Assembly: GCA_027315385.1 (NCBI GenBank)
Contig: DAHUYD010000061.1
Span: 1-64,000, forward strand
From: Acidobacterium sp.
GTDB taxonomy: Bacteria; Acidobacteriota; Terriglobia; Terriglobales; Acidobacteriaceae
Length of the DNA: 64,000 nucleotides
Reading direction: 5' to 3'
The position numbers and the translations under genes were made by a program. The notes beneath the pieces are model-generated. The model did not search any database. It was not told where the DNA came from and worked only from the letters and a program-made list of their open reading frames with translations. Shown piece after piece: positions 44,289 to 50,314 of the stretch; position 1 is the stretch's first letter, and each line of letters begins with the position of its first letter.

Positions 44289-45515
44289 ATGGAATTATCC
44301 GAAGCTTTCAAGGTAGCCCTGCAGTCGCTGTGGGCGAACAAGATGCGGACCGTGCTGACCATCGTCGGCGTGGTCATTGGGATTGCCGCGGTCATCGCCG
44401 TGGTCACCCTGGTGCAGGGCGCCAACATGTGGGTGATTACGAAGATCGCGCACAAGGGCTCGAACACGTTGACCGTGACGCGTACGCCGCAGGTGATCCT
44501 GACCCCGGATGAATATCTGAAGGCCAACAAACGCAAGAACCTTACTTACAGCGATTTCGAATATCTGCAGCGCACCTGCACGCTGTGCAAGACCATTGGG
44601 GCGCAGTTATCCTCCACCGGTACCGTTATCAGCGGCAAGCAGTACAGCAACAACACCGATATCAACGGCTGGACCGCCAGCATGGAGCAGATTAGCGACC
44701 TGAAGGTGGTGCAGGGGCGCCCGCTCACGCAAATGGACGATGAGCTTGGAACGCACGACATCGTCGTTGGTTACGACATCGTAGAAAATCTGCTGCCCAA
44801 CATGGATCCTATCGGCCAGGAACTGCGGGTGGACGGCGAAGTCTACACCGTGGTGGGCGTGGGCAAGAAGGAAGGGGCGATCTTCGGGCAGAGCCAGGAC
44901 AATTATGTCGATATGCCGCTGAGTACCTATCTCCACACCCATGGCGAACATCAGAGCGTAACCATCTCCGCGACGGCCAGCACAGCCGGCGGCGCGCTGG
45001 AAAATGCCATCGATCAGGTGCGGGCCCTGCTGCGCGCCCGCCGCCACGACATGCCCGGCGTGGAGGACGATTTCACCATCTCCACGAACGACACCTTCAT
45101 CAGCATCTTCCACGAGATCACTTCCACCTTCGCCACCGTAATCATCGGCATCGCGTCGATCTCCCTCGTGGTCGGCGGAGTGGTCATCATGAACATCATG
45201 CTGGTCTCGGTCACCGAACGCACGCGGGAGATCGGAATCCGCAAGGCTCTGGGCGCGAGACAGAACGACGTGATGGTCCAGTTCCTCTTTGAGTCGGGCG
45301 TGATGGCCCTGATCGGCGGGATCATCGGCGTGGCCCTCGGCATTACCATCGGCAAAACTGTTACGCTGCTCATCGGTTTTCCCAGTGCGATAGCTTTCTG
45401 GGCTGTGGCGCTGGCTCTGTTTGTCTCGGCCAGCGTAGGCATTTTCTTCGGCGTTTACCCGGCGCGCAAGGCGGCGATGCTCGACCCCATCGTGGCGCTG
45501 CGCGCGGAGCTCTGA
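44289..45515 (+). CDS. MacB/FtsX-type ABC permease (first of a tandem pair)
   Basis: A 408-residue permease: helix 1 near 20-42, a periplasmic MacB_PCD-like domain (about 50-270) and the FtsX-type three-helix domain at the C-terminus (IISLVVGGVVIMNIMLVSVTERTREIGIRKALGA). The FtsX signature (RTREIGIRKALGA) is intact. There is no ATP-binding domain in the protein and no ATPase gene next to it. TACACT at 44222-44227 may be its -10 box, with a leader of about 55 bases. The periplasmic part contains Cys-x-Leu-Cys (TCTLCKT) early, which is unusual. It is followed 3 bases on by a related permease. Confidence 0.9.
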   Translation: MELSEAFKVALQSLWANKMRTVLTIVGVVIGIAAVIAVVTLVQGANMWVITKIAHKGSNTLTVTRTPQVILTPDEYLKANKRKNLTYSDFEYLQRTCTLCKTIGAQLSSTGTVISGKQYSNNTDINGWTASMEQISDLKVVQGRPLTQMDDELGTHDIVVGYDIVENLLPNMDPIGQELRVDGEVYTVVGVGKKEGAIFGQSQDNYVDMPLSTYLHTHGEHQSVTISATASTAGGALENAIDQVRALLRARRHDMPGVEDDFTISTNDTFISIFHEITSTFATVIIGIASISLVVGGVVIMNIMLVSVTERTREIGIRKALGARQNDVMVQFLFESGVMALIGGIIGVALGITIGKTVTLLIGFPSAIAFWAVALALFVSASVGIFFGVYPARKAAMLDPIVALRAEL

Positions 45516-45518
45516 CCT

Positions 45519-46772
45519 ATGGCACTCAGCGACTCCCGCGAATCCGTGCGCATGGCGATGTCCACCCTCCGCGCGAACAAGCTTCGTTCCGGGCTGACCA
45601 TCTTCGGCGTGGTCATCGGGGTGGCTACCGTCATCACGATTTCCTCCCTCATCAACGGCGTCAATAATCGCGTTGCGGATATGGCCCATTCCTTCGGAAC
45701 CAACGTCCTGTGGATCTTCCGCTGGAATCCCATCGGCACCCAGCCCACCGCGGAAATGCTGGCGCGACCCTACCTGACGCTGGACGACGCCGATTCTCTG
45801 GGGACGCTGCCGCACGTGGTCGCCGTGGATGCCGCGCGCCAGTTCGCCAACTGGCAGCTCAACGTAGGCCAGGTTGCGGTCCAGTACAAGAACAGAATCG
45901 TCCAGAACACGATTCTCGAAGGCGCTCAGCCCACCTTCGCCAGCGTTTCCAACCTTCAATTTCAGGAAGGCCGGCCCTTTTCACCCGATGAGGCTTTTCG
46001 TGCCGCAAATGTGGTGGACCTCGGGCACGATACCGCGTCCAGGCTCTTTCCGGACGAGGATCCGATCGGCAAAGACGTCATCATCGACGGAGATGTCTTC
46101 ACGGTTATCGGCGTGATGGACAAGTTCAAGCAGGCATTCGGCAGCGGCCCGGATCCGCAGGATAACCGCGCCGACTTTCCCCTCAACACCTTCAGGAAGA
46201 TCCATCCCGAGGTGCTCGACACTGTCATCGCGGTGAAGTACGACAACGAGAAAAACAAAAACCTGGTGACGGAAGAGGTGCGGGAGATGCTGCGGGCGCG
46301 CCGGCGCGTGCGCGTAGAAAAGGACGACAATTTCGCTATCTTCGGACCGGATTCCATCCTGACCTTCTGGTCGGAAATCACAACCGGCCTGGTGATCTTC
46401 ATGTTCGCCATCTCCTCCGTCGGCCTGCTGGTGGGCGGCATCGGGGTGATGAACATCATGCTGGTGTCGGTCACCGAGCGAACCCGCGAAATCGGAGTGC
46501 GCAAGGCCATCGGCGCCACCCGCCGCAACGTGCTGGTGCAGTTCACTGTCGAGGCCATCACCCTGTGTGCCCTCGGCGGCATCCTCGGCGTGGTTCTCGG
46601 CGGAATCATTACCGCCATCGTGCGCTTCGGCATTACCTTCCCGGCCAGCATGTCGACCTTCTGGACGGTCACCGGCTTTGTTGTTTCCTGCGTGATCGGG
46701 CTGGTATTCGGAATCTATCCGGCCTGGAAGGCGGCCAACCTTGACCCCATCGAAGCTCTCAGGTACGAGTAG
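45519..46772 (+). CDS. MacB/FtsX-type ABC permease (second of a tandem pair)
   Basis: A 417-residue paralogue of the preceding permease with the same plan: helix 1 near 25-47, a periplasmic MacB_PCD-like domain and a C-terminal FtsX domain (LLVGGIGVMNIMLVSVTERTREIGVRKAIGATRRNVLVQF). Only three bases separate the two, so they are likely co-translated and may form a heterodimer. The missing ATPase must be encoded elsewhere, or the partner is shared. The S41-like gene follows after 90 bases. Confidence 0.9.
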   Translation: MALSDSRESVRMAMSTLRANKLRSGLTIFGVVIGVATVITISSLINGVNNRVADMAHSFGTNVLWIFRWNPIGTQPTAEMLARPYLTLDDADSLGTLPHVVAVDAARQFANWQLNVGQVAVQYKNRIVQNTILEGAQPTFASVSNLQFQEGRPFSPDEAFRAANVVDLGHDTASRLFPDEDPIGKDVIIDGDVFTVIGVMDKFKQAFGSGPDPQDNRADFPLNTFRKIHPEVLDTVIAVKYDNEKNKNLVTEEVREMLRARRRVRVEKDDNFAIFGPDSILTFWSEITTGLVIFMFAISSVGLLVGGIGVMNIMLVSVTERTREIGVRKAIGATRRNVLVQFTVEAITLCALGGILGVVLGGIITAIVRFGITFPASMSTFWTVTGFVVSCVIGLVFGIYPAWKAANLDPIEALRYE

Positions 46773-46862
46773 TAGCCGCGATTTGCGAAAGCCCGGCTGC
46801 CGGCCTCGTGATCCGGCTGCGGTATCATGAAAGACACGCGGTCTCCACGCCGCTTTTTGCCT

Positions 46863-48059
46863 ATGTCCAGAAGTTTTCAACGCGCCATTCTCGCTATCTC
46901 CGTTGCCGTCATCCTCGTGGTCTTCCTCGGAGCCTTCGGCCCCTCCGGAGTCAGCGCCAGCCAGAACGACGGCGCTTATCTCCAGATGAGCGTCTATGAG
47001 GATGTCCTCCACAAGATCCAGACCGACTACGTCACCACCCCCAATATCGATGAGGTGACGAACGGTGCGCTCCATGGCCTGCTGGAGTCGCTCGATCCGG
47101 AGTCCAGCTATCTGACAAAGGACGAATACGCCACTTACCTCGCTCATCAGCACGAAGGCCAGGCAGAGGTGGGGCTGGAAGTCTCAAAGCGGTTTGGCTA
47201 TGGCAGTGTGGTCACGGTGATTCCCGGCAGTCCTGCCGCGAAAGCGAATATCCAGGATGGCGATCTGATCGAGGCCATCGGCGGCAAGACCACGCGCGTG
47301 ATGTCGTTGGCAATGATTCGTCTCCTGCTGGAGGGCAAACCCGGCACCACGGCCAGTTTCGACCTGGTGCGCCCTGGAAACCCCAAGCCGGACACAATCA
47401 CGCTGACCAGGACTATGGCGCCCCCGCCGCCGCTCGTCGTGCAGCAGTACAAGGACTCGGGCATTCTCTATCTCAAGCCCACCGTGCTGACCGCCGATCG
47501 CGTGAATGAGATCGTCTCCCACCTGCGCGCGATGCCCAAAGAGGGCGACAGAAAAGTGATCCTGGATCTGCGCGACACCGCGGCCGGCAGCGAAGACCAG
47601 GGGATTCGCCTGGCCAATGCATTCCTTAAAACAGGGACCATCGCGATGCTGACCGGTCAGACGGTCCCCACGCAGACCTTTAGCGCCGACGCCCCGCGCT
47701 TCGTCACCGCGGCCCCCCTCGTGGTTCTCGTCAACAGTGGAACCGCAGGGGCGGCGGAGATCGCAGCCGCAGCTATTCTCGACAATAAGCGCGGCGACGT
47801 GGTCGGTGAGCGCACCTTCGGGGAAGGTGGCGAGCTGAAGACGTTTCCGCTGCCCGATGGAGCTGCGCTGCTGCTGACCGTGGCCAAGTACGAAACGCCG
47901 AACGGCCAGAAGATCGAAGACAAAGCGGTTACTCCGAACATCGCGGTGGCGGCAAGCCAGGAAGAGGTCCTGCCCGGGACCAAACCGGCCCTGCAGCAGC
48001 AGCACACCGACGATCAGTTGAACAAGGCTCTCGAGATTCTGAAGCAAAAGAATGCTTAA
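46863..48059 (+). CDS. S41 (CtpA-like) protease homologue lacking the catalytic dyad
   Basis: A 398-residue exported protein with an N-terminal membrane anchor (about 8-24), a CTP helical domain (VYEDVLHKIQTDYV, ESLDPESSYL), a PDZ domain (about 100-185; VIPGSPAAKANIQDGDLIEAIGG) and an S41 fold. The canonical catalytic Ser of SASASEI is Gly296 (NSGTAGAAEI), and the canonical Lys of the F-G-K-G motif is Glu321 (TFGEGG). I expect no CTP activity by the usual mechanism. The start at 46863 is preferred over 46827, which overlaps a possible -10 (TATCAT). The PBP1A gene follows 17 bases on. Confidence 0.92.
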   Translation: MSRSFQRAILAISVAVILVVFLGAFGPSGVSASQNDGAYLQMSVYEDVLHKIQTDYVTTPNIDEVTNGALHGLLESLDPESSYLTKDEYATYLAHQHEGQAEVGLEVSKRFGYGSVVTVIPGSPAAKANIQDGDLIEAIGGKTTRVMSLAMIRLLLEGKPGTTASFDLVRPGNPKPDTITLTRTMAPPPPLVVQQYKDSGILYLKPTVLTADRVNEIVSHLRAMPKEGDRKVILDLRDTAAGSEDQGIRLANAFLKTGTIAMLTGQTVPTQTFSADAPRFVTAAPLVVLVNSGTAGAAEIAAAAILDNKRGDVVGERTFGEGGELKTFPLPDGAALLLTVAKYETPNGQKIEDKAVTPNIAVAASQEEVLPGTKPALQQQHTDDQLNKALEILKQKNA

Positions 48060-48076: not shown

Positions 48077-50314
48077 TTGAACTTCATTACCCCATCGCCG
48101 CGCGACGAACAGCCGGAGTCGCAAGGCCCCGGTTTTCGGCCAGGGGGCGGCCGACGGAAGATTGCCGGCAGCGTCGCCCTGGTTTTCCTCGTCCTGTTGG
48201 CGGCGGCGGCCGGCTCGCTCGCCGGGCTCATGCTGGTCTATTCCGTCGACCTGCCCCAGATCGATCAGCTCGAACATTACCAGCCCATCGCCACCACGCA
48301 GCTTTACGATATCCACGGGCGCATCATCGGCTCTTTCGCGCTGGAGCGCCGTACGCCGGTTGGCTACCACGATTTTTCTCCGGTTCTGCGCCAGGCCGTC
48401 ATCTCGACAGAGGACCGCGACTTCGAGAGCCACTGGGGCGTGAATCTGTTTCGCGTCGCGGCAGCCGCCTGGCACGACGTCTTCTCCAAAGGCCGGGCAC
48501 AGGGGGCGTCCACGCTCACCATGCAGTTGGCGCGGAATCTCTACCTGACCAATGAGCGCACCCTCTCGCGCAAGCTCCAGGAGGTGTTCCTCTCGCTTCA
48601 GATCGAGCACCGCTTCACGAAGCGGCAGATCTTTGCCCTCTACGGCAATCAGATCTACCTGGGCGCCGGAGTGTACGGGTTTGAAGCGGGCGCGGAATAT
48701 TACTTCTCGAAACACGCCAGCGATCTGACGCTGCCGGAGGCCGCCATGCTGGCCGGACTGCCCAAAGGTCCCGTCGAGTTTTCACCCATCCTGAACCCGG
48801 AACGGGCGCTCCGGCGGCGCAATCTGGTGATCGACGCGATGCTGGAGGACGGCAGGATCACGGTGGCCCAGGCGCAGGCTGGGCGCTCGGCCCCCCTCGG
48901 CCTGCACATCGAACCCCCGCCGAACTCCGTCGCTCCGTGGTTCGTGGAAGAGGTGCGGCAGGAACTGGATCGCCGCTTCGGTTCGGAGGAGGTTCACGCC
49001 GGTGGCCTGCGCGTCTATACGACGATGGATCTGGACTTTCAGCAGGCCGCCAATCGGGCTGTGCTGGGTGGCCTCGCGGCTTACGAGCGCAGTCAGGGCT
49101 GGCGCGGGCATCTGCTCAACGTAATTGCCGGCGGCTATTCGGTTGAGGATTTTAGACACCCCGACTGGGCCCAGCCGCCGACGCCCGGCGCGTACACCCA
49201 TGCAGTCATTACCGGAGTGCTTCCCTGGCAGGTGACCGCGCGCATCGCAGATCGCACGCTGATCCTGACCCCGGCGGACTGGGCATGGACCGGCTTCCAA
49301 ACTGCGGACAAATTCCTGCGCGTGGGCGACATCGTCTACGTCCAGATCGCGGGTGCCGGCAACTCCTCCGGCGGAACCCTCCGCGGCACCCTCGAAGAAG
49401 ACACGGGCGCGGAGGGCGCACTGCTCGCCATGGACAACAACAGCGGCAACGTCCTTGCCCTGGTGGGCGGGCGCGACTTCAATCTTTCCCAATTCGACCG
49501 CGCCACTCAGGCCGAGCGGCAAACCGGCTCCTCATTCAAACCGTACGTCTACACGGCTGCCGTCGAGGATGGACTAACGCCGCGTGACACCATCATGGAC
49601 CGCCCGGTCTCCTTCGGCTCCTATGTGCCGCACAACTACGACGGCCGATTCTTGGGCCGCATTTCTCTGCTGAAAGCCTTTGCCGACTCCCGCAACATTC
49701 CCGCTCTGGAACTGGCCCGGCACGTCGGCATGGAGAACGTGATCCGAACCGCGCGCCGCTTCGGCATCACCACGGACATCCCGCCTTATCTGCCCATCGC
49801 CCTTGGCTCCGCCGACGTGACGCTGGAGCAGCAGGTGGCCGCGTATTCCGTCTTTCCCAACGATGGTCTGCGCGTGGCGCCGCATCTCATCCGGCGCGTG
49901 GTGGCCGCCGACGGCACCCCGCTCTTCGAGGACACGCCCGATGTGACCGAGGCTATCAGCCAGAAAACCGCCCGCACCATGATGATCTTCCTGCGCAGCG
50001 TGGCCACCGAAGGAACAGCAGGATCGCTGGCGGCGCTGCATTATCCGCTTGGCGGCAAGACCGGCACAACGAACAACTTCACCGACGCCTGGTTCGTCGG
50101 GTTCTCACCCTCGGTTACCTGCGGAGTGTGGGTGGGCTACGACAACCGCGAATCGCTCGGTGACCGCGAAACCGGCGCGCGCGCCGCACTGCCGATCTGG
50201 ACCGGTTTCATGAAGACGGTCATCGCGGCCTCCCCCAACGAGTCGTTTCCGGGCACGCCCCCGGTCCCCCTGCCTGCGGCCAGGCAGACCGCGGCGTTGA
50301 TGCGGTTTCGATAA
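48077..50314 (+). CDS. Class A penicillin-binding protein (PBP1A type)
   Basis: A bifunctional peptidoglycan synthase of 745 residues: N-terminal membrane anchor (about 27-52), GT51 glycosyltransferase domain (about 80-260; catalytic Glu in ISTEDRDFESHWGVN, ASTLTMQLARNLYL, LYGNQIYLGAGVYGFEAGAEYYFSK) and transpeptidase domain (about 430-720; nucleophile Ser in TGSSFKPY, SRN motif, KTGTTNNFTDAWFVGF). The TTG start lacks a ribosome-binding site but lies 7 bases after TAAACT. It polymerises and cross-links glycan strands at the outer face of the inner membrane. It sits with a pseudo-CTP and two FtsX-type permeases upstream and a GH18 gene downstream. Confidence 0.96.
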   Translation: MNFITPSPRDEQPESQGPGFRPGGGRRKIAGSVALVFLVLLAAAAGSLAGLMLVYSVDLPQIDQLEHYQPIATTQLYDIHGRIIGSFALERRTPVGYHDFSPVLRQAVISTEDRDFESHWGVNLFRVAAAAWHDVFSKGRAQGASTLTMQLARNLYLTNERTLSRKLQEVFLSLQIEHRFTKRQIFALYGNQIYLGAGVYGFEAGAEYYFSKHASDLTLPEAAMLAGLPKGPVEFSPILNPERALRRRNLVIDAMLEDGRITVAQAQAGRSAPLGLHIEPPPNSVAPWFVEEVRQELDRRFGSEEVHAGGLRVYTTMDLDFQQAANRAVLGGLAAYERSQGWRGHLLNVIAGGYSVEDFRHPDWAQPPTPGAYTHAVITGVLPWQVTARIADRTLILTPADWAWTGFQTADKFLRVGDIVYVQIAGAGNSSGGTLRGTLEEDTGAEGALLAMDNNSGNVLALVGGRDFNLSQFDRATQAERQTGSSFKPYVYTAAVEDGLTPRDTIMDRPVSFGSYVPHNYDGRFLGRISLLKAFADSRNIPALELARHVGMENVIRTARRFGITTDIPPYLPIALGSADVTLEQQVAAYSVFPNDGLRVAPHLIRRVVAADGTPLFEDTPDVTEAISQKTARTMMIFLRSVATEGTAGSLAALHYPLGGKTGTTNNFTDAWFVGFSPSVTCGVWVGYDNRESLGDRETGARAALPIWTGFMKTVIAASPNESFPGTPPVPLPAARQTAALMRFR

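Follow-up and report, generated by a model that had tools for sequence, protein, structure and literature searches.

A gene in the window, the stretch of 64,000 nucleotides of Acidobacterium sp. DNA that was analysed, encodes a protein of the S41 protease family (pseudo-CTP, Table 1) that keeps the fold of a CTP without its defining catalytic residues and so belongs to a clade of pseudoenzymes within the CTP family. The catalytic loss is phylum-wide in the Acidobacteriota and is not a local accident. We consider it reasonably probable that this phylum-wide pseudoprotease, derived from CtpA/CTP (S41A), serves as a peptide-binding wall adaptor or a natural 'substrate trap'. In a search of the literature confined to open-access papers, no account of a bacterial S41 pseudoprotease clade came up.

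Table 1 Features of pseudo-CTP and its neighbours, in coordinates of the window
Feature	Position	Strand	Basis
MacB/FtsX-type permease 1, upstream	44289..45515	+	Pfam; synteny
MacB/FtsX-type permease 2, upstream	45519..46772	+	Pfam; synteny
Pseudo-CTP gene, S41 protease homologue without catalytic residues, 398 aa	46863..48059	+	ORF, Pfam, structure-linked alignment
N-terminal hydrophobic segment, residues about 8-26: signal peptide or membrane anchor	46884..46940	+	Sequence; helix 3-25 in AlphaFold2 model
Equivalent of CtpA N-terminal dimerisation region, residues 40-83	46980..47111	+	PaCtpA alignment; interface hydrophobics kept
Glu80, His84 equivalent	47100..47102	+	PaCtpA alignment
PDZ domain, residues about 99-183	47157..47411	+	Pfam PF17820, PF13180, PF00595
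S41 core, residues 212-362	47496..47948	+	PF03572; confident part of model; best fold matches CtpA
Ala240-Ala241, replacing CtpA Pro245-Gly246 (substrate P1 site)	47580..47585	+	PaCtpA alignment
Gly296 (codon GGG), replacing nucleophile Ser302	47748..47750	+	Alignment with CtpA; context NSGTAGAAEI
Glu321 (codon GAA), replacing general base Lys327	47823..47825	+	Alignment with CtpA; context TFGEGG
Leu325, replacing Gln331; Gln retained in most orthologues	47835..47837	+	PaCtpA alignment
PBP1A (glycosyltransferase-transpeptidase), 17 bp downstream	48077..50314	+	Pfam PF00912, PF00905; TIGR02074 over cut-off

The protein runs from an N-terminal hydrophobic segment through dimerisation helices and a PDZ domain to the S41 core, and the position of the PDZ domain before the core is that expected of S41A CTPs. 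Its match to the Pfam profile PF03572 (Peptidase_S41), at 110.3 bits against a gathering cut-off of 24, places it in the S41 family; with TIGR00225, the model of the C-terminal processing peptidase subfamily, it scored below the curated cut-off (186.7 vs. 218.6 bits). Sequence comparison gave CtpA of Helicobacter pylori and Pseudomonas aeruginosa as the closest solved relatives (E 1e-50 to 1e-46). The reading frame is intact from end to end. An alternative in-frame ATG lies at 46827, and the start at 46863 is supported by near relatives, which align from the first Met of that start. Between the second permease gene and the pseudo-CTP start, a weak terminator-like hairpin with a T run was observed at 46838-46858; such sites were not clearly commoner in the region than chance would give.

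The AlphaFold2 model of pseudo-CTP was of medium quality (mean pLDDT 69.6), with pLDDT mostly above 85 in the S41 core between residues 190 and 320 and poor values in the N-terminal region and the PDZ domain. Its best fold matches were CtpA structures, with TM-scores near 0.5, probably because the placement of the domains is uncertain. The hydrophobic residues that form the interface of the CtpA N-terminal dimer (PMC8764530) are retained in the alignment, which makes dimerisation plausible, and pseudo-CTP is probably dimeric.

Alignment to the solved CtpA structures, gap-free in this region, placed Gly296 under Ser302 and Glu321 under Lys327, with the same spacing of 25 residues as between Ser and Lys in P. 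aeruginosa CtpA. Pseudo-CTP thus has Gly instead of the catalytic Ser of the G-[ST]-A-S-A motif and Glu instead of the catalytic Lys 25 residues later, both of which mark an active S41A CTP. The original prediction, made from this DNA before the present analysis, had claimed that both catalytic residues are replaced, by unambiguous codons and without a frameshift, and this was borne out in full. Its statement that the rest of the fold is intact held for the fold, with PDZ and S41 domains both recognised. It did not hold for the active site: the residues equivalent to His84, Pro245, Gly246 and Gln331, four further positions that had been overlooked, are replaced as well. Either S302A or K327A by itself is enough to abolish the in vivo activity of P. 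aeruginosa CtpA; G246M removes nearly all of it, H84A lowers it and the effect of Q331A is minor (PMC11021448). From these replacements we strongly infer that pseudo-CTP has no peptidase activity.

A match was present in all 61 of the sampled relative genomes. Orthologues for the comparison were picked by overall similarity, independently of the motif. The class set comprised the best short-type match of nearly every sampled genome, the window included (L005-L059; 54 rows with the region present), and the phylum set comprised 51 short-type orthologues of other Acidobacteriota families (L140-L191 without L184). Results showed that the Ser-Lys dyad was missing in 102 of these 105 orthologues. 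The Ser position was occupied by Gly in 51/54 rows of the window's class and mostly by Gly in other families, where Asn, Gln, His, Lys or Ser occurred in a few cases. At the Lys position most of the class had Glu, and the other families had Arg, Ala, Leu, Thr and others; Val was seen as well. The equivalent of Gly246 at the P1 site was changed in many members of the clade too. Both Ser and Lys were kept only in L054 (family f9) and in L168 and L170 (family f33), and none of these three has the equivalent of His84 or of Pro245. An alignment with S41 homologues of Acidobacteriota had been proposed to separate a pseudo-enzyme clade from a local change; with Gly conserved and Glu usual in the class, it points to the clade. 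Gly was also found in 79 of 80 named loci, nearly all labelled Acidobacteriaceae or Acidobacteria, a count that was not used for the Gly frequency because the search pattern with which they were retrieved itself contains the Gly form. The one named locus with Ser is L064. In L064 and L014, entries for the same gene in the window's genus, the motif reads NHGTASAAELV with a TCA codon for Ser, and the dyad is still broken because the Lys position remains Glu.

Could pseudo-CTP still be an active peptidase with another nucleophile or base? The kept fold, the invariance of the neighbouring Arg237, Glu299 and Gly320 and the retention of Ser and Lys in three clade members would suit such an enzyme, but we hold it to be highly improbable, as no conserved substitute exists: Thr294 aligns with Thr or Ser of active CTPs, Ser292 varies even within the genus, and the Lys column is mixed. 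Displacement of the Ser or Lys to neighbouring positions, which had been named at the outset as an observation that would speak against a pseudoprotease, was checked in the orthologue alignments and rejected, since they contain no conserved candidate for a shifted nucleophile or base.

In a tree computed without the catalytic columns, 55 short-type rows formed a single clade, with 100/100 on the branch separating 12 active CTPs. L168 and L170 were sisters, and L054 was placed beside the window's class. The fewest changes that account for the three members with Ser and Lys are three; if regain is disallowed, more independent losses are required. Among near relatives of pseudo-CTP, dN/dS was 0.07-0.15, the slowest-evolving parts included the former active site (285-330) and residues 41-100, and the Gly codon was GGG, GGA, GGC or GGT by species, its third base being free to vary. 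These results indicate that the gene is maintained with the Gly preserved, and a catalytic loss that is conserved in orthologues under purifying selection is the mark of a pseudoenzyme. The earlier pseudoprotease reading is therefore supported, and a decaying gene is not. Loss of active-site residues by itself would be compatible with gene decay or a sequencing error, but this explanation was rejected and its probability is negligible, given the intact frame, the phylum-wide conservation and the low dN/dS; the variety of the Gly codons, together with conservation of the residue across the phylum, excludes chance or sequencing error.

CTP proteases control peptidoglycan hydrolases through degradation. 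Pseudo-CTP resembles CtpA of P. aeruginosa and H. pylori, its best sequence and fold matches, in the order of dimerisation helices, PDZ domain and S41 core and in its ties to cell-wall enzymes, be they functional or through gene order, but it lacks the catalytic Ser, the Lys and most supporting residues and has a shorter C-terminal region. It is also like the engineered Ser-dead CtpA-S302A, which binds MepM and, in pull-downs, other wall hydrolases but leaves them uncut (PMC6050968), and in whose structure a peptide was found in the tunnel (PMC11021448). The resemblance of the natural protein to this trap favours a binding role on wall enzymes. Unlike in the laboratory-made protein, the loss in pseudo-CTP is natural and ancient and extends to the Lys and often to the P1-site Gly. 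With the Gly246 equivalent replaced, the tunnel may not take up peptides in the manner of CtpA, and the PDZ domain would then be the likelier binding site. Conserved inactive protease relatives are likewise represented by the iRhoms, rhomboid pseudoproteases that are known regulators (PMC3149277); they are eukaryotic and differ from pseudo-CTP in fold and place.

We propose that pseudo-CTP would be exported to the envelope, where the putative dimer, with its PDZ domain and CTP-like core, would bind periplasmic wall proteins by their C-terminal tails or by unfolded segments and would not cleave them; these proteins may be hydrolases, activators or synthases. The bound proteins may be held or positioned at sites of peptidoglycan synthesis, and in Acidobacteriaceae pseudo-CTP would probably be co-expressed with PBP1A. 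From these comparisons we infer an adaptor or regulatory role in wall growth. Against the adaptor stand a neighbour gene that varies between families, adjacency being no proof of physical interaction, the three orthologues with the dyad, and the low model confidence of the PDZ domain and N-terminal region.

The main rival to the wall adaptor is regulation of an active CTP paralogue, in which pseudo-CTP would damp or target proteolysis by pairing through the N-terminal dimerisation helices or by competing for substrates or an adaptor. The same genome encodes a long CTP outside the window (L001, contig C168:78945) with the dyad intact (NRGTASAAEI, TFGKG), and long CTPs accompany the short form in most genomes searched. 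Retention of the dimerisation region in pseudo-CTP would also fit, as would the CtpA-LbcA complex, which activates just one subunit per CtpA pair (PMC11021448). We nevertheless judge such regulation unlikely, since the long CTP (about 540-570 aa) is only 30-35% identical to the pseudo form and encoded elsewhere, its dimer helices differ, and no shared operon of the two was seen. With an intact dyad in L001, the proteolytic job could be done elsewhere in the genome.

The S41 fold has been reused for binding in IRBP/RBP3, an S41-derived retinoid binder. IRBP is found in the vertebrate eye, contains several S41 modules and has neither a PDZ domain nor a wall context. This precedent, together with a faint sequence match to IRBP, would allow pseudo-CTP to be an envelope chaperone or ligand carrier unrelated to wall synthesis, comparable to IRBP in retinoid transport. 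Such a role seems quite improbable for a protein that keeps its PDZ domain and that wall genes adjoin in several families.

The wall adaptor reading draws on these neighbours. The original prediction had linked pseudo-CTP to PBP1A across a gap of 17 bp; the gap was confirmed provided that PBP1A starts at a TTG, a start codon that both of the closest relatives share, and the adjacency is conserved in the family Acidobacteriaceae. After six of the 80 named loci were set aside because their contigs end too early, PBP1A was found on the same strand ≤500 bp downstream in 64 of the 74 testable Acidobacteriaceae loci, farther down the same strand in 7, and not found in 3. Outside Acidobacteriaceae, other wall genes occupy its place. 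PBP1A is unlikely to be the original or only partner, because this link is confined to one family and pseudo-CTP is far older.

Neighbour genes in the orthologue loci were called by codon usage. An EnvC-like gene lies directly upstream on the same strand, within 118 bp, in 22 orthologue loci, and a divergent polysaccharide deacetylase gene (PF04748) is next downstream in 12 loci, three of which belong to the window's own class (L039, L048 and L050). The EnvC-like protein consists of a coiled coil and M23, with EnvC as its best NCBIfam model, below cut-off. EnvC is a murein hydrolase activator, and that of E. coli is an enzyme-dead LytM/M23 protein acting by binding; unlike pseudo-CTP, it has a different fold and regulates amidases. 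In Proteobacteria, genes for active CtpA are commonly arranged as envC-ctpA-deacetylase, so the pseudo form seems to occupy the place of ctpA. At the window itself this order was not found, the neighbours being MacB/FtsX permeases and PBP1A. The window's genome has no PF04748 gene, and its single M23 gene looks, by eye, like a MepM-type endopeptidase and not like EnvC.

A conserved CTP form without catalytic residues beside a PBP1A or EnvC-like gene suggests a non-proteolytic role in wall growth. Tentatively, and with more doubt than conviction, we suggest that the EnvC/PBP1A wall machinery of Acidobacteriota may have had its CtpA partner replaced by an enzyme-dead, binding-only regulator of wall growth. 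If true, a CTP substrate trap would have evolved naturally into a wall-synthesis adaptor across a phylum. Pseudo-CTP offers a natural case in which to see how much binding can achieve when no cleavage follows. L054, L168 and L170 are natural controls for comparisons of activity.

The two MacB/FtsX permease genes were rejected as part of the unit, since synteny links them to pseudo-CTP only in the window's genus, and they are probably outside the core unit. The ORFs listed around the tandem permeases include no ATPase gene on their strand. In L044, L045 and L046 (family f2, same order), a gene for a SpoIVB-like S55 peptidase homologue lies directly downstream on the same strand (PF05580, 29.7 bits in L046); SpoIVB and CtpB belong to the same pathway in Bacillus. 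In other families, MltG-like and RuvX-like genes, named by eye, often adjoin pseudo-CTP upstream on the opposite strand (L173, L050, L055 and others), and the genes ThrRS-IF3-L35-L20-PheS, also named by eye, often follow it.
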